In this document: piece after piece, positions 1,596 to 25,236 of the stretch
Numbering within the stretch: position 1 is the stretch's first letter
How the letters are laid out: the number at the start of each line of letters is the position of its first letter
NCBI RefSeq assembly: GCF_002159735.1
Contig: NZ_NFJF01000010.1
Location: 1-35,530, forward strand
DNA length: 35,530 bases
Direction of reading: 5' to 3'
Source: Olsenella sp. An270
GTDB taxonomy: Bacteria > Actinomycetota > Coriobacteriia > Coriobacteriales > Atopobiaceae
The notes under the pieces: generated by a model
The model's database searches: none
The model's input: the letters and a program-made list of their open reading frames with translations, nothing else
What the model was told of the DNA's origin: nothing
Made by a program: the position numbers and the translations under genes

Positions 1596-1679
1596 ATTCC
1601 AAAGCATTCCGCACACATTCCGAATGTATTCCGAATACTTGGAATGTATTCCGATACATTCGGAATGCATTCGGAAATG
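1596..1679 (+). repeat. Helically phased ATTCC/GGAAT palindromic repeat array
   Basis: ATTCC or ATTCGG cores begin at 1596, 1606, 1617, 1628, 1648, 1658 and 1669, and a GGAAT at 1641 fills the gap. The spacing is 10-11 bp, about one helical turn. Several units are palindromic (ATTCCGAAT, ATTCGGAAT), and the left and right halves are inverted copies, so the block could fold into a long imperfect hairpin. It lies after the PRC-barrel gene and about 160 bp before the AlbA_2 gene. It may be a terminator-like structure or a cooperative protein-binding array. Confidence 0.75.
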
Positions 1680-1766
1680 ACCTGTTCAAATCTGCTGCGT
1701 GACCGCTGGTGACGGCACGTTCTTGGCACGCCCAAAACAATTCGCCGATATTCCTCAAAATTTTGC

Positions 1767-1817
1767 ATACAAAGTGGAAAACTTTGTATATAAAGAGCAA
1801 ACTTTGTAGAATACAAA
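1767..1817 (+). promoter_or_regulatory. Promoter with TTTGTA/TACAAA dyads (likely operators)
   Basis: A perfect inverted repeat ATACAAAG (1767-1774) / CTTTGTAT (1782-1789) is followed by a second dyad TTTGTA (1803-1808) - gaa - TACAAA (1812-1817). The ACTTTGTA copies at 1781 and 1801 are exactly 20 bp apart. A plausible promoter overlaps them: TTTGTA (1783-1788), an 18-bp spacer and TAGAAT (1807-1812). Repressor binding here would block the promoter of the AlbA_2 gene at 1839. The downstream protein has a C-terminal winged-helix-like region, so autoregulation is possible but is only inferred. Confidence 0.6.
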
Positions 1818-1838: not shown

Positions 1839-3269
1839 ATGGATGCAAAAGAGCTTGTGGAAAGAGTCGTTCACCAAAAGGCGGAGGGTCAGACCGTCGA
1901 GGTGAAGGCTGCTAAGAGCGGCGCTCCGAAGGTCTACGACACCCTTTCGAGTTTTTCCAACCAACAGGATGGCGGCGATATCGTCTTTGGCATGGACGAG
2001 CGCGACAACTTCAAGGTGGTTGGTGTCTACGATGTCCAGGCGCTACAACGCGAAATCGTAGACCAAGGCAAAGAGATGACGCCTGAAGTTCATCCCACTT
2101 TCGAAACGTATGAAGCTCCGGCAGGTACTGTTGTGGTTGCCCACGTCTCGGGGATGCCGATGGGACGCCGTCCTGTTTATCGCACCACGTCGGGCATAAC
2201 AAAAGGTGCCTACGTGCGCAGCGGCGACCAAGACTTGCACATGGGACCGGCCGAGCTCTACGAGATCGAGGCTTTCAAGGATGGCCTGAGAGACGACGTG
2301 AGCGTCCCGTCTATTTCAGAGAGGGATATGCTCGACCCGGACAAGGTTGCCGACTTTGTAATTAGAGCGAAAGATGATCGACCAAACCTCGCGCGGCGAG
2401 ATGCCGAGAAGGTCCTGGACCTGCTGGGGGTCCAGAGGGACGGGAAACCTACGTTGGCGGGCCTCATGACGCTGGCCGACTACCCGCAGCAGGCGCTTCC
2501 AAATCTCTGCGTAACCGCCATTGCTGTTTCGGGAACAAGAATCGGTCAAGACGACTCGGGGGAGAGGTTCATCGATAACAAGCGCTTCGAGGGAACCATA
2601 GAGGAGATGGTCGAGGCGGCGATCGCGTTCATAAAAAGGAACACGCGGACAAGGTCGGTCATCCGGGGCATGCGTCGAGAGGATATCCCAGAGTATCCAG
2701 AGAAGGCCGTGCGTGAGATTGTGGTCAATTCGCTGATGCACCGAGACTATGGCCCATATAGCAACGGCACGCCCACCAGGCTGGTCATCTTCTCCAACCG
2801 CCTGGAGTGCTGGAACCCAGGGGGAATCTACGGCGGGCAGAGCATCGACAACCTCGGATACGTGAACATACAGACGAGGAACCCGACCCTTGTCTCAATT
2901 CTGGAGATCCAGGGAGTTGCCGAGAATCGCCACTCAGGGATTCCGCTCATCAGGGAGGAGATGAGAAGGGCAGGCCTGCGCCCCCCTGTGTTCGTCGACA
3001 GGAGAGGGTCGTTCTCTGTCACCCTTTACAACGAGCCCGAGGTCAAGAGCGCGAGGAACAGGGGCGGTAGGCGCAAAGTTTCCGAGGAGGAGCTTCTGGA
3101 ATTCTGCTCCGTTCCAAGAAGCAGGGGCGAGATTGCCTCGCACTTTGGGATAAACACCGCCTACGCCTCGAGACACTACATCAACCCGTTGGTTGGGCGC
3201 GAGCTTCTGCTCATGACGATGCCCGAGAAGCCACAGAGCAAAGACCAGCGCTTTGTGACTGCACGCTAG
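1839..3269 (+). CDS. AlbA_2/Schlafen-type ATP-binding protein with C-terminal winged helix
   Basis: The 476-residue protein starts with an AlbA_2 (Schlafen AAA_4-type) domain, about residues 15-120, with EVKAAKSG and the SSFSNQQDGGDIVFGMDE turn. The middle region carries a GHKL/HATPase_c_4-type signature at about 285-375 (AVREIVVNSLMHRDYG, then NPGGIYGG and SGIPLIREEMRRAGL). The last 75 residues look like a winged-helix DNA-binding domain (SRGEIASHFGINTAYASRHY). Such proteins are annotated as putative transcriptional regulators or ATP-dependent helicase-like proteins; some belong to defence loci. GGAGG at 1830-1834 supports the ATG. The operator-like dyads upstream fit self-regulation. It is a single-gene unit ending convergently 34 nt from the EEP gene. 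The function is not established. Confidence 0.8.
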   Translation: MDAKELVERVVHQKAEGQTVEVKAAKSGAPKVYDTLSSFSNQQDGGDIVFGMDERDNFKVVGVYDVQALQREIVDQGKEMTPEVHPTFETYEAPAGTVVVAHVSGMPMGRRPVYRTTSGITKGAYVRSGDQDLHMGPAELYEIEAFKDGLRDDVSVPSISERDMLDPDKVADFVIRAKDDRPNLARRDAEKVLDLLGVQRDGKPTLAGLMTLADYPQQALPNLCVTAIAVSGTRIGQDDSGERFIDNKRFEGTIEEMVEAAIAFIKRNTRTRSVIRGMRREDIPEYPEKAVREIVVNSLMHRDYGPYSNGTPTRLVIFSNRLECWNPGGIYGGQSIDNLGYVNIQTRNPTLVSILEIQGVAENRHSGIPLIREEMRRAGLRPPVFVDRRGSFSVTLYNEPEVKSARNRGGRRKVSEEELLEFCSVPRSRGEIASHFGINTAYASRHYINPLVGRELLLMTMPEKPQSKDQRFVTAR

Positions 3270-3303
3270 GCGGGTCCCCGCGACGCCGCCTAGACCTCGC
3301 GCC

Positions 3304-4620
3304 CTAGACCTCCAGCACGCCCAGCAGCGCGCGGTGGTCCGTTCCGCTCACCACCGCCGTCTCGAGGTTGCTCACCTGGACCCCGGAGCCGCGCCAGTAG
3401 ACGATGTGGTCGATCTCTACCAGCGACGGCAGCTTCCCGGAGGGGTACGTCATGTGGAACCCCTCGCCGGCCTCCGCGCCCGCGTCCACAAAGTCGACGC
3501 CCAGCAGGTCGCGGAACTGCGCGTGGTCCCACGTGGAGTTGAAGTCGCCCATGATGAGGTAGCTGTGGTTGTAGCCGGAGAGCTGCCCGATCACGTCCAG
3601 CCCCTCGTCCCACAGGTCCTGCGCCCCGCGCACCGGCGAATTGGGGTGCACGCTCACCACGCGCACGGCCAGCCCGCCAATCTGGACGGTGCCTGCGGGC
3701 ATCGAGCTCGTCTCGATGGGCAGCAGGTTGCCCGAGACGTCGCTCATCGGCGCCAGGGTCCAGATGCCGTTGCGCCCGCCGTTGCTGATTGCGGATGCCT
3801 CGTCGGAGATCACGTAGTAGGGGAGCAGGTCGTAGAGGCCGGCGGCGGCAAGCTCGTTCAGGAAGCTGTCGGTCAGCTCCTGCATGCAGAGCACCTCGAC
3901 GTGCTTGTCGCGCACCAGCGCAACCACCTCCTCGGCGGAGGCGCCGCCGTTGGCGGTGTTGAGCGTCATGACGCGAGCCACGTTGTCGGAGGGGTCGGAG
4001 ACGGTCTGCGCCGCGGTCACGGCTGCGTCAGAGACGCCCGCCCGCGGCAGCAGGAACCCGGCGTGCCACCAGAGCATCGTCGCCAGCGCGAGGACGCTCA
4101 CCACAAAGAGCCCCAGGCGTCGCCACAGCAGCGCCAGCACCAGGCACAGGATGATCGGCGCAAAGAGCCACGGCACAAACGAGATTAGCTCGGGCAAGGC
4201 GCGGCCGCTCGCCAGCTCGGCCGGCAGGCAGCGTAGCGCCATCTGGGCCAGTACCCCCAGCATGACCAGCCAGAGCAACGCGGAGAGGCAGCCGTGTCGC
4301 GGGCCCTTCCGGACTCGCGGCGCACGCGGCGGGCGAGAAGGACCGTCGGGTGCGGCGGGCGCGTCGGCCCCGCGCGGCGTCGGCGCCGCCACGCGCGGAC
4401 CCGGCGCGGTGTCGCCCGTCGCGCGGGCGGGGCGCGCGGCCTCCACAGGCGTGCGGCGCACCACGGTCGCGGCGGGCTCCAGCCATTCGTCGACCTCGCG
4501 CCCGGCCTCGGTGTCCGAGCCCGGCTCAAGGTTGGCGGTCAGCGCGTCCCACTCCTCGTCCGACAGGGGTTCCCAGCGGGCGTCTGTGTCCTCGGCGTTG
4601 TCAAGGAAGTGGTTGGCCAT
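3304..4620 (-). CDS. Membrane-anchored endonuclease/exonuclease/phosphatase family protein
   Basis: The protein has 438 residues. About 105 N-terminal residues are Ala/Pro/Arg-rich and probably cytosolic. Three membrane helices follow (about 110-130, 143-165, 168-192), then an extracytoplasmic EEP domain from about 213. The EEP metal and catalytic motifs are present: MTLNTANGG, CMQELTDS, VSVHPNSP, MGDFNSTWDH, VEIDHIVYW and GTDHRALLG. The family cleaves phosphodiesters in nucleic acids or phospholipids; the outward-facing membrane-tethered form is common in actinobacteria and resembles secreted nucleases or sphingomyelinase-like enzymes. The substrate cannot be told. AGAGGAA just upstream supports the ATG. 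It is monocistronic and convergent with the AlbA_2 gene. Confidence 0.85.
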   Translation of the reverse strand: MANHFLDNAEDTDARWEPLSDEEWDALTANLEPGSDTEAGREVDEWLEPAATVVRRTPVEAARPARATGDTAPGPRVAAPTPRGADAPAAPDGPSRPPRAPRVRKGPRHGCLSALLWLVMLGVLAQMALRCLPAELASGRALPELISFVPWLFAPIILCLVLALLWRRLGLFVVSVLALATMLWWHAGFLLPRAGVSDAAVTAAQTVSDPSDNVARVMTLNTANGGASAEEVVALVRDKHVEVLCMQELTDSFLNELAAAGLYDLLPYYVISDEASAISNGGRNGIWTLAPMSDVSGNLLPIETSSMPAGTVQIGGLAVRVVSVHPNSPVRGAQDLWDEGLDVIGQLSGYNHSYLIMGDFNSTWDHAQFRDLLGVDFVDAGAEAGEGFHMTYPSGKLPSLVEIDHIVYWRGSGVQVSNLETAVVSGTDHRALLGVLEV

Positions 4621-18839: not shown

Positions 18840-20177
18840 GGTAACGTACAATTTCTTGCGCACTTTGACAGCGGCATAGCGTCCAGATAGGAAGGAGGGC
18901 ACGGCCCGCCCCGGTATGATTCGAGTTGTCGAGACAAGAAACATGCTGGAGGTAGACCATGCCCGAGCCCATCGTAACATTGAACGAGGAGTCCCTGAGG
19001 TCCGACCTGCGCGAGCTGGTGAGGAGGACGGTCGAGGAGATGCTCAACGGCCTTCTGGACGGGGAGGTCGGAGACCTCGTGGGCGCCGAGCGCCACGAGC
19101 GCACCGCCGACCGCGAGGCCTACCGCGCGGGCCACTACGAGCGGAAGCTCGCGACGACGTCCGGCGAGGTGACGATCCGCATGCCCAAGCTCAAGGGGAT
19201 GAGGTTCACCACGGCGATCATCGAGCGCTGCCGGCGCCGGGAGACGAGCGTCGAGGAGGCCATGATCGAGACGTGCCTCGCCGGGGTCTCGACCCGCAGG
19301 ATAGAGGACGTCTCCGAGATCCTCTGGGGCTCCAGCGTCTCGGCCGCCACCGTCTCGAGCCTCAGCGAGAAGGCGTTCGCGTCGGTCGAGGAGTGGAGGA
19401 ACAGGCCCCTCGACCGGGCCTGCCCCTACGTCTACGTGGACGGCATCTACCTTAAGAGATCATGGGGAGGCTCATACGAGAACGTCGCCGTGATGGTCGC
19501 CATCGGCGTGAACGACGACGGCTACCGCGAGGTCGTCGGCGCCGCCGAGGGCCACACCGAGTCCTCGGAGTGCTGGCGGGAGTTCCTCTCGTGGCTGAGG
19601 TCGCGCGGGCTGCGCGGCGTGCGCATGTCCGCCGGCGACAAGGCCGCCGGGATGGTCGGCTCGATCGCCGAGGTGTTCCCGGGGGCGGCGCACCAGAGGC
19701 GCGCCGCCCGCTTCTACCGCAACGTGCTGGCCAGGGTGCCCAAGTCCAAGCGGCCGAGGGTCGCCGCGATGCCGAGGGCCGTCCACGCCATGGAGTCGCG
19801 CGGGGCGGCCGAGGCCAAGGCGCTCGAGGTCGCGTCCGAGCTGGAGGCCTCGAGGCCCAGGGAGGCCGCCAAGGTGGTGCGCGAGGGCTTCGCCGAGACC
19901 CTGACCTACACGCGCTTCCCCCCGCGAGCACTGGCGGCGCATGCGCACCAACAACGCCATCGAGCGCCTCAACCGGGAGATCCGACGCAGGACGAGGGTG
20001 GTGGGGACGTTCCCCGACGGGAACTCCGCCCTCATGCTCGTGACCGCGAGGCTCAAGTACGTCGCCGAGAGCGAGTGGGGCTCCCGCCGCTACCTGGACG
20101 TGACGCTGCTGGAGGAGGCGCACCGGGAGGCGGGCATATAGGGCTGTCCGAAAGTGCGCAAGAATCTTGACGGTACC
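18840..20177 (+). mobile_element. IS256-family insertion sequence, probably inactive
   Basis: Imperfect terminal inverted repeats of about 27 bp bound the element: the left from 18840 (GGTAACGTACA, then TTCTTGCGCACTTT) and the right ending at 20177 (AAAGTGCGCAAGAA, then GACGGTACC). About 22 of 27 positions match. The length of about 1.34 kb and the single transposase fit IS256. The right terminal sequence is repeated in tandem to 20203. I see no 8-9 bp target duplication, so flanking DNA has probably been rearranged. Confidence 0.8.
18959..20141 (+). pseudogene. IS256-family transposase, frameshifted near the 3' end
   Basis: The reading frame encodes a mutator/IS256 transposase: CPYVYVDGIYLK carries the first Asp (about residue 161) and MSAGDKAAGMVGSI the second (about 226). 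The third acidic residue, in NNAIERLNREIRRRTRVVGTF, lies in a different frame. One extra base near 19917-19926 (a run of C before GCGAG) shifts the frame after TYTRFPP; the true C-terminus continues in another frame to 20141. Also, the family's Cys-x2-His segment after the second Asp reads QRRAARFYRN, lacking both residues. GGAGG (18948-18952) precedes the ATG. A sequencing error could explain the shift but not the lost residues. Confidence 0.85.
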
Positions 20178-20203
20178 AAGTGCGCAAGAATCTTGACGGT
20201 ACC
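20152..20203 (+). repeat. Two tandem 26-bp copies of the IS256-type right end
   Basis: The unit starting AAGTGCGCAAGAATC and ending GACGGTACC occurs at 20152-20177 and, identically, at 20178-20203. It corresponds to the outer part of the right inverted repeat. The second copy abuts the truncated IS30-type gene. Confidence 0.9.
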
Positions 20204-20650: not shown

Positions 20651-22183
20651 CTATTGTGCGAAAAGCCGGAAGAAGGCTGTATCCTGGTAGTCAAACGCCT
20701 CGAAGTTGATGGAGGGCTCTAGAGTCGCTATCGAGTAGGCTCCGTCATCGGCAAGAAGAATCGTGTGCTCAGTGACAACATGATAGAAGCCTCGGTAAAT
20801 CTCAACGAGGGGCGTGACGCAGCCGATGGCAAGGCACACGATTAGCAGAACCCGTCGCAGACGGCTGGGACGGTACACATCCCTTCTGTCAGCCAGCACG
20901 GCCTGTGCGCACATGAGCATCAGTATGAAGATGGCGGGTATCGACACCCTCATGGTGAAGTCGTAGCCTCCGCCCACGCGGATGAAGGGACAGGCAAGTA
21001 AGAGTCCGCACACGGCGTAGAACAATGGCTCCCTTCGATGCTCCCTCCAGATCAATATCAGATATGCACCAGCATCCAAGAAGAGCAAGGCGGCAATCAG
21101 CTTGAGGGAGGGGCCGCCGTCTGCGGCGGCAGTTGAGTGAGCCCCACCAGCAAAGGCGGCGTTGCTCACGAAGTAAGTAATAACGATGGGGCACCAGCCC
21201 AGGAGGGTCAGGAGGTTTTGGGGGCTGAGGGCGTGCTCTCGGAAGTACCGCGCGGAGCACCAGAGGGGATGGCCTGCGTGCTCGCGCGTCATCACGGATT
21301 GAACAAGGTCTGCGACGAACTTTATCAGCATGAGAATGGTGAGGCCCAATGCGGGGAAGGGGCCGAATAGGAGGGTCGTGGAGACGATGGGAACGTAGTT
21401 GCGGGCGTCCTTCTCCTGAACGAAGCACATGGTCGCTATCCATGGTGCAACGGCCTGGTTGAAGACCCAGTAGAGGCACGTCGTTATGGAGCTGAATTGA
21501 AGGGCGCCATACGCCCACCATTCCAGATGGAGGGTCTCCGGCGCCAGCGACTGACCGAGAGTGCCCTTCAGGAAGGCCCCGACAACGTCCATGCCAGAGA
21601 AGAAGATGAAGATGGCCACAAGTGCCGGGAGCCTCTTCATGCTGTCAGAACCGAAGTGGACGTACATCAGCAGCACGACCAGCGTGAGCCCGAGCGTAGT
21701 CCAGAGCCAGAGCAGCACGTTGCCAATCGCCCAGGCAACACCCAGTCCGACGACCTTATATACCCCTTTTGCCAGCATAGCGGGCACAAGCCAGTGACCG
21801 ATGTAGTAGGAGAGCGCCGTGCCCTTCTCGGCGTAGATGACGGGCCAGGGTCGGGTGATGAGGTCTCTGAAGATGGCATTTCGTATCGTCCAGTCGTGCG
21901 TCTGGAACCAGAGGTTGCCCTGCCCGCCCAGAAAGGACCAAAGCAGCATAACCGCAACGATTCCAACGAGGGCCTTGATCGAGAGGGGGACGGCCCTTTC
22001 GTCGCTTGAGACGCCGTTCCCTCCCGAATGTTTGAATGCCGTCAGGTAGACTGCCGCGAGAAGCATGACAGCGCATGGCAGAGCGATATAGAGCCGGACG
22101 AACGTCAGCAGGAAGACAAGGCAGGGAAGTGCCATGTACACAAACGCAAGGCGGCGGAGTTTCGTGTAGGTTAGCTCTAGCAT
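20651..22183 (-). CDS. Polytopic GT-C-like membrane protein
   Basis: The 510-residue protein has about eleven hydrophobic helices. After the second or third helix comes a loop with THDWTIRNAIFRDLI, then WPVIYAEKGTALSYYIGHWLVPAML. That arrangement of an outward loop with an acidic His-Asp pair followed by a YYIG(H/Y)W helix recurs in GT-C-like proteins of glycan loci. Catalysis is not proven; a polymerase or a transporter are other options. ATG 22183 is preferred over the further upstream 22222 because GGGGAG lies 4 nt before it. It is read opposite to the main operons and starts near the second AlbA_2 gene, sharing a divergent promoter region with it. Confidence 0.6.
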   Translation of the reverse strand: MLELTYTKLRRLAFVYMALPCLVFLLTFVRLYIALPCAVMLLAAVYLTAFKHSGGNGVSSDERAVPLSIKALVGIVAVMLLWSFLGGQGNLWFQTHDWTIRNAIFRDLITRPWPVIYAEKGTALSYYIGHWLVPAMLAKGVYKVVGLGVAWAIGNVLLWLWTTLGLTLVVLLMYVHFGSDSMKRLPALVAIFIFFSGMDVVGAFLKGTLGQSLAPETLHLEWWAYGALQFSSITTCLYWVFNQAVAPWIATMCFVQEKDARNYVPIVSTTLLFGPFPALGLTILMLIKFVADLVQSVMTREHAGHPLWCSARYFREHALSPQNLLTLLGWCPIVITYFVSNAAFAGGAHSTAAADGGPSLKLIAALLFLDAGAYLILIWREHRREPLFYAVCGLLLACPFIRVGGGYDFTMRVSIPAIFILMLMCAQAVLADRRDVYRPSRLRRVLLIVCLAIGCVTPLVEIYRGFYHVVTEHTILLADDGAYSIATLEPSINFEAFDYQDTAFFRLFAQ

Positions 22184-22341
22184 AGAACTCCCCAACGAGG
22201 GCAGGAGAATCACGTTCTGCAATCGTACACCAGGAGCGCCCGGAGAGCCCTGACGATGGCGCTCCAGTGCGTCGCACCCTATGTCTGACGGGGCGATACA
22301 ATAAGGCTGCGTGCTGACCGCTCAATGGAATGGAGCTTGCG

Positions 22342-23802
22342 ATGTCTTTTAAAAACGGAGACTACAAGCTTGAGGAGTCCCAGCGCCTTGAGTTCAAAGA
22401 GGCTGCCGCTGGGCTACCGGATGACCTTTGGGAGTCATATTCTGCTTTTGCGAATACAGAGGGTGGGGAAATAGTCCTTGGAGTTCATGAGGACAAGGCC
22501 AGTCACGAGTATTCCTCAGTGGGCGTATCCGAGGCGGCCAAGCTGGTAGATGCGATTTGGTCGATCGCCAGAGATCCTAGGCGCGTCAGTCAGGATATCC
22601 TGCTCGCAGATGGCGTCAGCGTCATTTCAAGGGATGGCTTGGACTTCGTTGTTATTGATGTCCCAAGAGCGGACAGAAGTGAAAAGCCGATTGAAGTATA
22701 CGAGAAAAGACAGAAGAAGTTCGTTGCCTATGTTAGGCGAGGCAGCGGCGACCATAGGGCTACAGCATACGACATTGATGGAATGAGGTACGACAAGACT
22801 CCCAAAGCCGACAGGAGCCCTCTCGAGGAGTTCTCCCTGGAGGCATTGTGCCAAGAGACTATCCAGAAATATCGGCGCGTCTTTTCCGCTGTCAAGCAGA
22901 ACAGTCCATGGAACTCGGATAGTGACGAGGACTTCCTCTATCACATTGGCGCTGTTGCCAAGGGTCATGACGGGATGCTCCATCCCACAAGGGCCGGGCT
23001 GCTTGCATTTGGATTTGAATATGAAATTACCAGCTACATTCCCCAGTTCCTCCTGGATTATCGCGAAGAGACCTCAGAGGACATTCGTTGGGAAGACCGA
23101 GTTTGCTCCGAAAGCGGGGACTGGAGCGGAAATATCATCGACTTTTATTTTCTAGTTTCAGAGAGGCTGATTCGTCACTTCAAGTCCCCCTTCTTCACGA
23201 ACGAAATGGGCACGAGGCATGGGTCCAAGAATCCGGTTACTGAAGCGCTCAATGAGGGCGTGGCTAACGCAGTCATACATGCGCACTATGGAACGGCGGC
23301 AAGTGTCAAAGTGATACTTGGCTCGGAGCAGCTCGAGATAACGAATACCGGCGGGTTTCTGATTGATCGAGACGTCGCGATTGCCGGGGGCTTTTCTGAA
23401 GCAAGAAATCCCACTTTAATGAGAATGATGAACTTCATCGGCGCTTCAGACCGTGCCGGAAGTGGCCTGCAGGATATCTGGAGTACTTGGTCGGACGCGT
23501 TCGGTTGTGAACCCGTCCTGACCGAGAGCTACCATCCCTCTATGGTGAAGCTGGTCCTTCCGGTTTTCTCTGGTATGGGTGGTCCGGCGGCCCGATATGT
23601 GCCCGGGAAATATGACGAGGCCATTTTGGGTCTCTCGGAACAATCTCAGGGCGGCGTAACCATTGAGCAGGTTAGCGGCCGGCTCGATATATCCGAGAGG
23701 GTTGCTCAGAAGAGTCTAAAGAGGCTTTTCGAAGCGAAGAAGCTTAACCGCTTCCGTGATGGTCACCGGTTTAGGTACGTGCCGTACGACACCAGAGCCT
23801 AG
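22342..23802 (+). CDS. Second AlbA_2/Schlafen-type putative ATP-binding protein
   Basis: This 486-residue protein has an AlbA_2 domain (residues ~10-135): ESQRLEFKEAAAGLPDDLWE, then SAFANTEGGEIVLGVHED and FVAYVRRGSGDHRAT. A GHKL/HATPase_c_4-like segment follows at about 315-400 (VTEALNEGVANAVIHAHYG, EITNTGGFLI, RNPTLMRMMNFIG, RAGSGLQDIW). The tail has a winged-helix-like region (GGVTIEQVSGRLDISERVAQKSLKRL). It shares architecture with, but is clearly diverged from, the protein at 1839. GGAG (22332-22335) favours ATG 22342 over ATG 22330. It stands alone among oppositely read membrane genes and ends 5 bp before a palindromic repeat array. Its function is unknown; regulation or phage defence are candidates. 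Confidence 0.8.
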   Translation: MSFKNGDYKLEESQRLEFKEAAAGLPDDLWESYSAFANTEGGEIVLGVHEDKASHEYSSVGVSEAAKLVDAIWSIARDPRRVSQDILLADGVSVISRDGLDFVVIDVPRADRSEKPIEVYEKRQKKFVAYVRRGSGDHRATAYDIDGMRYDKTPKADRSPLEEFSLEALCQETIQKYRRVFSAVKQNSPWNSDSDEDFLYHIGAVAKGHDGMLHPTRAGLLAFGFEYEITSYIPQFLLDYREETSEDIRWEDRVCSESGDWSGNIIDFYFLVSERLIRHFKSPFFTNEMGTRHGSKNPVTEALNEGVANAVIHAHYGTAASVKVILGSEQLEITNTGGFLIDRDVAIAGGFSEARNPTLMRMMNFIGASDRAGSGLQDIWSTWSDAFGCEPVLTESYHPSMVKLVLPVFSGMGGPAARYVPGKYDEAILGLSEQSQGGVTIEQVSGRLDISERVAQKSLKRLFEAKKLNRFRDGHRFRYVPYDTRA

Positions 23803-23806
23803 GCCC

Positions 23807-23923
23807 GCGAACGTTCGGGAACCAACGCGAACGTTCGGGAACCAACGCGAACGTTCGGGAACCAACGCGAACGTTCGGGAACCAACGCGAACGTTCGGGA
23901 ACCAACGCGAACGTTCGGGAACC
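23807..23923 (+). repeat. Six tandem 20-bp repeats with a CGAACGTTCG palindrome
   Basis: The unit GCGAACGTTCGGGAACCAAC begins at 23807, 23827, 23847, 23867, 23887 and 23907. The first five are complete and identical; the last breaks off after GGAACC at the stop codon of the flippase gene. Each has a perfect 10-bp palindrome. The array fills the whole gap between two convergent genes. It is unlike CRISPR, as there are no unique spacers. Confidence 0.97.
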
Positions 23924-25236
23924 TATGCCCTCTTGATGCCCAACGCGAAGACAATGCCGAACCATGCCGTAAGCAACGCCATAAGAGCAAGGTAGACCCA
24001 CGATGCCCCATCGATACCGGCGGCGCCGACGACCATGGGTGAAGAAACGAGAGCGAGGAGGGCGACGACCACGTATCCGAGCGTCAGCTTGCTCTGCCAG
24101 CGAATGATGGTGATGCCCGTGGTGAAGAGCGTCGCCATGGCGAGGAAGCCTCCCCCCACGAGAAGTACGACCAGATCGATCTTGTATGGTTCGAGCTCGG
24201 CGTTGTACAGGAGGCTGAGCACGGGAACGCCCAACAGCCATGCGCCGGCGATGCAGGCGAGCGTGATGATTGCGATAACGAGCACCTGAACCGCAAAGCG
24301 ACGGGCAAATACATCGTGCTTTCCCTCCGCCCAGTTCTCCGCTAGGGACGCGATGATGGGGTTGTAGATGAAGCCGGCGAGCAGGCCGACCACGAAGACC
24401 GGCATGGCGATGAATCCGTAGTAGGCCTGCGCCGTGTCGTCCATTGCGACGTCGATGGCGTACTTGGGGGCGTTTCCAATGTAGAAGAGCAGGAAGGTGG
24501 CAAGAAACACCGGAAAGCTCTCGCGCAGCAGCTCTCCCGCGTGATGCAGCGCTGCGCGTCCATGTTTGATTTGAGCGCTCCCGCTAGTTGGAAGGCCAAA
24601 ACGCCTGCGCGCCCAGAGCGTCTCGGCCACAAAGAAGATTCCCGTGAACACGGTTGTGGCAGTCAGGGAGAGCAGCAGGCTGCGTGTTGCCACAATGAGT
24701 CCCGCGTAGAGCACGATCATGGTCAGCATGCGCAGCGTGAGCACCTTTGCGCCCACGTCCAGCCTGCCGTGCTGCTGATAATTGCCGTGAAAGACGTCCT
24801 CCAATGCATCGATGGCCTTAAAGATGAGCATCATGAGCACCGTGAGGGTCTTCTCGAGGGAGTAACCCACCGTGATTGCCGACCACGCGAGCCACGCGCA
24901 GCCCCCAACGATCATTGCGGCGACGGAGATGACCCGGGCAACGAGGTACGAGCGGAAGTCGTACTTCTCGTCCACGTCAGAGACCTGGAAGTTGCGGATG
25001 CCGTACTTTCCTACGTTGAGGAATAGGTTTGCGTTTGCGTAGGCAAGGGTGAAGACACCGGCGGTCACCATGTCGCATACATGCGTGAGCACGGTGAGCA
25101 TGATGACGGATTGGAAGGCATTGAGCAGGCCAGACGCCGTGTTCCAGAGGTAGGCGGAGCGCTCTATTGTGGCGTCGTCCTGCTGACCGGAATCGTTGTG
25201 TCGAACAGCCCTATGCATGTCTGCCTCGCTCGTCAT
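23923..25236 (-). CDS. wzx: Wzx-type oligosaccharide flippase
   Basis: The 437-residue protein has 12 or so hydrophobic helices and the layout of polysaccharide flippases in the MOP superfamily. The N-terminus 'YLWNTASGLLNAFQSVIML' matches the usual first helix, AYANANLFLNVGKYGIRNFQVSDV follows, and FLLFYIGNAPKYAIDVAMDD marks the seventh-helix region. It would move lipid-linked repeat units across the membrane. It is read away from the sugar-transferase operon, with the start 127 bp from it. Its stop overlaps the last 20-bp repeat. A second flippase lies at 30031, so two different glycans may be exported. Confidence 0.88.
   Translation of the reverse strand: MTSEADMHRAVRHNDSGQQDDATIERSAYLWNTASGLLNAFQSVIMLTVLTHVCDMVTAGVFTLAYANANLFLNVGKYGIRNFQVSDVDEKYDFRSYLVARVISVAAMIVGGCAWLAWSAITVGYSLEKTLTVLMMLIFKAIDALEDVFHGNYQQHGRLDVGAKVLTLRMLTMIVLYAGLIVATRSLLLSLTATTVFTGIFFVAETLWARRRFGLPTSGSAQIKHGRAALHHAGELLRESFPVFLATFLLFYIGNAPKYAIDVAMDDTAQAYYGFIAMPVFVVGLLAGFIYNPIIASLAENWAEGKHDVFARRFAVQVLVIAIITLACIAGAWLLGVPVLSLLYNAELEPYKIDLVVLLVGGGFLAMATLFTTGITIIRWQSKLTLGYVVVALLALVSSPMVVGAAGIDGASWVYLALMALLTAWFGIVFALGIKRA

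Follow-up and report, generated by a model that had tools for sequence, protein, structure and literature searches.

The second AlbA_2 gene in the 35,530-nucleotide stretch of Olsenella sp. An270 DNA that we analyzed (the window) is followed almost immediately by an array of six identical 20-bp palindromes, and pairings of this kind, with repeats spaced at the helical pitch of B-DNA, recur beside the non-core AlbA_2 genes of the genus. We consider it reasonably probable that gene and array constitute a single module, in which binding of the array by the C-terminal winged helix would retain a Schlafen-type effector at its own locus or limit it there. The features on which our analysis relied are the following:

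1606 to 1676, no strand: palindromic array of the ATTCCGAA type, the more distant of two upstream of AlbA_2 gene 1 (TRF)
1757 to 1806, no strand: array of the ACTTTGTATA type, the nearer of the two, immediately upstream of AlbA_2 gene 1 (TRF)
1839 to 3269, plus strand: AlbA_2 gene 1, of a different subfamily (cluster 1; Pfam, clustering)
20651 to 22222, minus strand: divergent neighbor ORF of 523 aa, no Pfam match (ORF list, Pfam)
22342 to 23802, plus strand: the focus gene, AlbA_2 (Schlafen), HATPase_c_4 (GHKL) and a C-terminal winged helix (Pfam PF04326 and PF13749; AlphaFold)
23614 to 23784, plus strand: segment coding for the winged helix, recognition helix SERVAQKSLKRLF (model; comparison of C-terminal segments)
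23806 to 23923, no strand: the focus array, six identical 20-bp units, palindrome CGAACGTTCG plus TTCGGGAA (TRF, pattern search)
23923 to 25236, minus strand: convergent ORF of 437 aa, no Pfam match (ORF list, Pfam)

A sequence-only reading of the window had described an AlbA_2 gene directly followed by six 20-bp palindromic repeats, and this description is fully borne out. TRF reports 5.9 copies of CGCGAACGTTCGGGAACCAA at 23806-23923 (period 20, 100% matches), starting 3 bp past the stop codon of the focus gene, and the score of 236 is the highest among the 11 TRF rows for the window. The 16-mer CGAACGTTCGGGAACC occurs exactly six times, and when up to two mismatches to it were allowed in 100 shuffles, the mean count was 0.01 and the maximum 1. 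Within the 2.01-Mb genome, these six are the only sites with at most one mismatch; the next best has two. Since the half-site GAAC recurs at 10-bp steps throughout the 118 bp (GAACGTTCGG GAACCAACGC), the focus array should be viewed as a 10-bp half-site array.

Several known types of repeats were considered for the focus array and rejected. CRISPR arrays consist of repeats with unique spacers; the focus units are identical and spacer-free. REP/RAYT systems combine palindromic units spread over the genome with a RAYT transposase; here, dispersed copies at up to one mismatch and a transposase domain in the focus protein are both lacking. A reading as a plasmid array was likewise dropped, as the search gave nothing. 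Phages as carriers of the focus motif were considered as well: two viral contigs hold the 16-mer once each, and none holds a triple of the type found in genome G092 (see below).

The open reading frame of the focus gene spans 22330-23802 on the plus strand (490 aa, counted from 22330; stop codon at 23800-23802), and the ATG at 22342 is the likelier start because it aligns with the starts of relatives. The encoded protein scores above the Pfam cut-offs for both AlbA_2 (44.3 bits; cut-off 25.3) and HATPase_c_4 (37 bits; cut-off 26), and its genome holds five AlbA_2 matches, not only the two of the window. The AlphaFold model, built from 33 input sequences (mean pLDDT 85, pTM 0.73), ends in a winged helix that was assigned from the order of secondary-structure elements in the full-length model (H-H-H-E-E at residues 429-485, numbered from 22330); ten-residue blocks across residues 431-490 have pLDDT values of 78-91. 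In an alignment of 33 sequences, E16, E21 and K23 are nearly invariant and E54 is invariant; these residues may match the active site of SLFN13, and the AlbA_2 domain is a possible RNase. The best structural matches of the model are DIP2311 of Corynebacterium diphtheriae (PDB 3lmm; E 5e-18) and the AlbA_2 domain 2kyy (E 5e-6), with long alignments at an RMSD of about 19-20, so that the domains match and not their arrangement; the rest of the structure matches listed are mostly GHKL kinases. The protein furthermore gave partial PADLOC matches to Argonaute-associated models (best 1.6e-11) and a match to PHROG 12156, annotated as 'DNA helicase' (1e-40), and an NCBIfam search with it returned no match.

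Enrichment of repeats beside AlbA_2 genes, the survey by which the pairing was to be judged, is pronounced in the genus. All 31 genus genomes contain AlbA_2 genes, 91 altogether, and these comprise 31 core genes (one per genome) and 60 non-core genes in many subfamilies, the latter taken as a set to be putative winged-helix genes. Members of the core family carry LPLGS...LVDALL near their end. Genes were scored as accompanied by repeats when an 8-mer was present three or more times, on either strand, in the 200 bp to one side or the other. This is the case for 38 of the 51 scorable non-core genes (nine were left out because the protein was short or a flank was missing, and one 1072-aa protein was kept); among control ORFs of the same regions the figure is 37 of 290 (odds ratio 20, nominal p 8e-19). 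Many loci are orthologous or near-duplicates, and the p-values consequently overstate independence. The core genes lie above the controls and well below the non-core genes (9/31; p 0.03 against the controls). The exact 8-mer criterion does not capture the loci L129 and L130 or their copies, whose arrays are recognized from degenerate copies of the repeat; the chain criterion used below also picks up L129. The repeated motif varies by subfamily, with GTACGAGCAAAA, ACTTTGTATA, TTCTAGTTGCC, ATTCCGATACATTCGGAATA, GTCGGACCTCT and AGAGCTGTAA as examples.

That the 20-bp period amounts to about two helical turns had been pointed out for the focus array, and a spacing that follows the helical pitch extends across the non-core flanks at large. 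Repeated 6-mers spaced by 11 bp are present in 32.4% of 102 non-core flanks versus 4.4% of 574 control flanks; the corresponding values are 24.5% versus 4.7% for 20 bp, 15.7% versus 2.1% for 22 bp, and 13.7% versus 6.6% for 10 bp. As these spacings correspond to the pitch of B-DNA, they favor an arrangement of proteins along a single face of the helix.

The subfamily of the focus protein allows a closer view. Relatives with at least 50% identity are present in seven of 140 family genomes (G000, G006, G012, G036, G080, G103 and G094), and a fragment is found in G092. A recognition helix of the S-x-RVAQ type occurs at seven distinct loci (the window, G006, G012, G036, G103, G094 and G092), and all seven, two of which (G103 and G094) are near-duplicates, possess a GCGAAC/GTTCGC array that starts no more than about 10 bp after the stop codon. 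The form of the array differs: the window, G006 and G012 have palindromes at 20-bp spacing, G036 mostly 9-bp direct repeats, G103 and G094 degenerate 10-bp repeats, and G092 10-bp direct repeats. The G080 gene, with a SERGVQ helix and an in-frame stop, is followed by only two GCGAAC-type words (at 19 and 32 bp past the stop), which may be the remnant of an array. Slackia piriformis, whose relative (at least 50% identity) has a SERSAQ helix, carries a different array, located upstream. The prospect that orthologues might lack any nearby array is hence not realized for the S-x-RVAQ loci, and it holds for many wider relatives.

A second winged-helix type, WHG (motif W[HR]G..DP.QYY), is represented by 12 proteins in three body clades. 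Between these clades the bodies are 23-27% identical and the winged helices 40-44%, and downstream arrays are present in all three. Ten of the 12 genes are followed by at least three copies under one or the other criterion, starting 0-72 bp past the stop codon, and the other two have two copies right at the stop. The protein L113, 35% identical to the focus protein, shares 54% body identity with one WHG clade and 22% winged-helix identity, and no array was found beside its gene. In a set of 67 rows (genus genes of at least 400 aa plus 13 hand-picked loci), the chain criterion finds downstream-only arrays at 13 of 18 WHG and RVAQ genes versus 2 of 49 others (p 3e-8), both types having been defined after the arrays had been looked at. 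It is thus the winged helix, and not the body, that array position appears to follow. When 66 bodies are placed on a tree, the upstream and downstream states of 51 labeled rows need nine changes, a raw count from labels that merge two criteria and are in part doubtful. Within subfamilies the winged helices are less conserved than the bodies (37% versus 60% in the focus group, for example), and the winged helix seems to behave like a diversifying specificity module.

Similarity of the repeat motifs gives a less sharply drawn picture. Among 40 arrays it correlates with winged-helix identity (r 0.39, p 0.0005) and at least as closely with body identity (r 0.42). With body identity controlled for, the partial correlation of motif and winged helix falls to 0.10 (p 0.005), and among 26 dereplicated arrays it disappears (r 0.03, p 0.32), so that a link between motif and winged helix beyond body similarity is not significant once near-copies are removed.

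When approached from the array side, the search led back to the same kind of gene. Two patterns of the focus type, used without reference to any protein, matched six loci in the 140 family genomes, and the reversed patterns matched none. Three of the six were known and expected (the window, G012 and G092), and three were new (G106, G009 and G099). The G106 locus (L260, G106:C58, minus strand) carries a 10-bp repeat tract inside an AlbA_2/HATPase-type gene, between ATPase and winged helix; the ATPase part surpasses its Pfam cut-off and is 51% identical to L113, and the winged helix is out of frame. A change in repeat copy number could switch the reading frame there. At the G009 locus (L250, G009:C4, reverse strand from 1397), a 28-codon ORF precedes the array; its start resembles the focus protein (MSFRDGDYSLEE; 18 residues, 61%, E 0.004) and its end resembles the wing of that protein, and it is probably the relic of a focus-type gene whose start has become joined to its last residues. 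In G099, the array directly follows an ORF with similarity to the final part of the L077 AlbA_2 protein (33%; tblastn E 8e-10, not corrected for composition) and with no more than 12.9 bits for a GHKL domain, under the Pfam cut-off; this ORF, too, is probably a relic of an AlbA_2-type gene, and this is our weakest assignment. The possibility that such arrays are equally common beside unrelated genes is therefore not supported: the array-first search ended at four clear AlbA_2-type genes and two probable relics, and no focus-type array was found beside a clearly unrelated gene in the 140 genomes, G099 being the weakest case.

Collectively, the recurrence of the pairing, its helical pitch, and the return of the array-first search to AlbA_2-type genes strongly suggest that every one of these proteins uses its winged helix to bind the array beside its gene. 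Recognition of the adjacent array by the protein, as proposed from the window, is in this sense partly supported, as a probable reading for the genes concerned and not as a general AlbA_2 trait. The model that we favor would run as follows. The winged helix would recognize a GCGAAC-type half-site repeating every 10 bp, and the protein molecules would assemble in a row on one face of the DNA just past their own stop codon. As our working hypothesis, this bound state would hold the protein at its own locus and limit its amount or activity, a self-limitation of a defense or stress effector. Private motifs may in addition prevent cross-talk among the several paralogues of one genome, an element of which we are less sure. 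Several observations sit uneasily with this single-module model: the motif is linked to the winged helix no more strongly than to the body and the link beyond body similarity is lost upon dereplication, the G106 tract lies inside a coding region, and many relatives have no array.

Autoregulation, with the protein repressing its own gene and the array serving as a multi-site operator, is a possible alternative that we nevertheless doubt. The arrays of 25 of the 66 labeled genes are upstream only and those of seven are on both sides, and in other subfamilies many sit just before the start codon. The RVAQ and WHG arrays, however, are downstream, and upstream of the focus gene, on its own contig, there is no copy of the 16-mer at up to three mismatches, so that plain promoter repression does not explain the focus array and an operator at its own promoter is not indicated for this locus. 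A downstream array could still loop to the promoter or act as a roadblock to transcription from a convergent neighbor, but the next ORF downstream occurs in either orientation among relatives; judged by this variable orientation, the focus array does not appear to be placed to drive a neighbor.

In an unlikely extension of the favored model, the array would tether a dormant Schlafen effector to a private place on the chromosome, with many promoter-distant sites holding a row of inactive protein. Damage to the array DNA, competition for it or its remodeling, for instance during phage takeover, would then free the effector, and winged helix and array would diversify together, giving each paralogue its own address.

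Quite unlikely, in our view, is that the array constitutes the recombination or mobility end of a gene cassette, insertion at the array leaving the gene bracketed by direct repeats. Such repeats do bracket 14 of 47 non-core AlbA_2 genes versus 8 of 295 control ORFs (p 2e-8), and 3 of 30 core genes, a hint at turnover of cassettes; the patchy distribution of the focus-type gene over the family and the retention of start, last residues and array in the probable G009 relic would fit as well. Yet no bracketing direct repeats were found at the focus gene or at L109 and L118, the Pfam search detected no recombinase or transposase domain in the focus protein, and ordinary recombination that duplicates genes would look alike. 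A comparison with empty sites at the convergent ORF did not yield an exact insertion site, as the far flank differs in the orthologues. At L118 and L109, gene and array adjoin genes for S-layer homology proteins and are flanked by near-identical inverted repeats of 141 and 109 bp, respectively. Another AlbA_2 gene of the genome to which the window belongs (L120, contig C14, complement 3002-4504) has 183-bp direct repeats on either side that are 95% identical and contain TTAACCTCACTTC arrays on both sides.

Very improbable is a function of the array as 3' UTR RNA that folds and binds the Schlafen domain. In type III toxin-antitoxin systems, whose repeat RNA acts in this way, the toxin gene is preceded by a conserved repeat RNA that folds; the focus array is downstream and its folding is not common to relatives of the same type, so that this assignment was rejected. 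Compared with shuffles, folding is strong for the focus array (z -5.35 on the plus and -3.17 on the minus strand), L118 (-3.81) and L228 (-5.77) and moderate for L042 (-2.55), but not good for the RVAQ-type L226 (+1.25), L128 (-1.22) and L129 (-1.25), nor for L225 (-0.50) and L036 (-0.82). The spacing at B-DNA pitch and the position before the start codon in other subfamilies also argue against an RNA, and an Rfam search of the window gave no family at threshold. That the array belongs to the convergent neighbor, or is a terminator or a neutral tandem duplication, is scarcely credible: it abuts the stop codon of this ORF (its last base, 23923, is the first base of that codon in plus-strand reading) and a single tandem duplication could be neutral, but two orthologues of the ORF (G030, 76%; G028, 75%) have neither an array nor an AlbA_2 gene within 1.5 kb, AlbA_2 relatives with other neighbors have the array, and a simple scan of 22150-24100 found no terminator.

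The reach of the pairing is circumscribed, and it does not hold as a general trait of AlbA_2 proteins. In the species-wide collection, from which a search contributed its best 80 loci, 78 of 82 loci were scored (two with open frames of 129 and 208 aa were dropped and two viral ones left out). Among these 78, arrays were found for 7 of 10 scored Actinomycetota relatives and for just 1 of 68 outside this phylum, where 11 of 136 control ORFs at the same loci score as array-bearing. Of 17 further family loci (21 loci minus L215-L218, which are the same places as L128, L127, L129 and L130), 12 showed no array, three carry one (L225, L226 and L228) and two have two copies (L224 and L233); the ORF assignment is wrong for L216 and doubtful for L221, L232 and L235. 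Viral relatives of the focus protein amount to nine loci, and no array was seen at the two inspected.

Helical-pitch repeats beside the gene for their binding protein are known from the iteron and parS-type arrays of plasmid replication and partition. The focus locus resembles these in its repeats next to the gene of a putative binding protein and differs from them in the body of this protein, which is Schlafen/GHKL and not Rep or ParB. Neighbors of array-bearing relatives, selected by hand, include AbiE pairs (L129, L077), a cytosine methylase and a relaxase (L036), an integrase (L042) and S-layer proteins (L118, L109, L077); these are variable regions that sometimes contain defense genes. 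As far as the excerpts of PMC7319586 go, AbiE is a type IV toxin-antitoxin system whose antitoxin AbiEi is tied to autoregulation through multiple inverted repeats. A DNA-binding regulator, putative in the case of the focus protein, and several inverted repeats are features shared with the focus locus, but AbiE is a two-gene pair, and the focus system consists of one protein and a downstream array.

According to the excerpted parts of PMC12839542, which cites a further study on bacterial Schlafen proteins (bioRxiv 10.1101/2025.07.24.666596), bacterial Schlafen proteins join a Schlafen RNase, a minimal histidine-kinase ATPase and a wHTH. In at least 1017 taxa they show a linkage with BREX and related loci, and several Schlafen-linked systems are described there as anti-phage modules. 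The focus protein has the identical three-part domain order. It differs from this account in the array adjoining its gene, no array being mentioned in those parts, and in its location among polysaccharide genes. Among the matches listed from the open-licence literature, we found neither a description of arrays beside such genes nor an account of what the winged helix of Schlafen-ATPase-wHTH proteins reads. The arrays now provide candidate recognition sequences for many of these proteins, which makes directly testable what they bind and what silences them, and offer a natural set of possibly orthogonal pairs of winged helix and site.

The focus locus itself holds sugar-transferase and polysaccharide genes, and the convergent ORF at 23923-25236 was judged, by eye only, to encode a flippase-like membrane protein. 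The end of a Mutator-family transposase ORF (18959-20170) falls within a perfect 26-bp tandem duplication at 20152-20203.

Both AlbA_2 genes of the window had been reported to sit beside palindromic arrays with TTCGG/CCGAA-containing cores. The pairing is indeed present for both, but gene 1 has two arrays, both upstream, and the parallel is weaker than described. The shared TTCGG core is probably a coincidence, since an array of the ATTCCGAA type is likewise found directly in front of a different subfamily's AlbA_2 gene in G030 (L046). The homologue of gene 1 in G027 (L106) carries both the ATTCCGAA-type and the ACTTTGTATA-type arrays as well. In the window (1606-1806) as well as in G030 (L046), arrays of two AlbA_2 subfamilies, the ATTCCGAA and ACTTTG types, occur jointly upstream of a single gene, and it looks as if one gene had replaced another.
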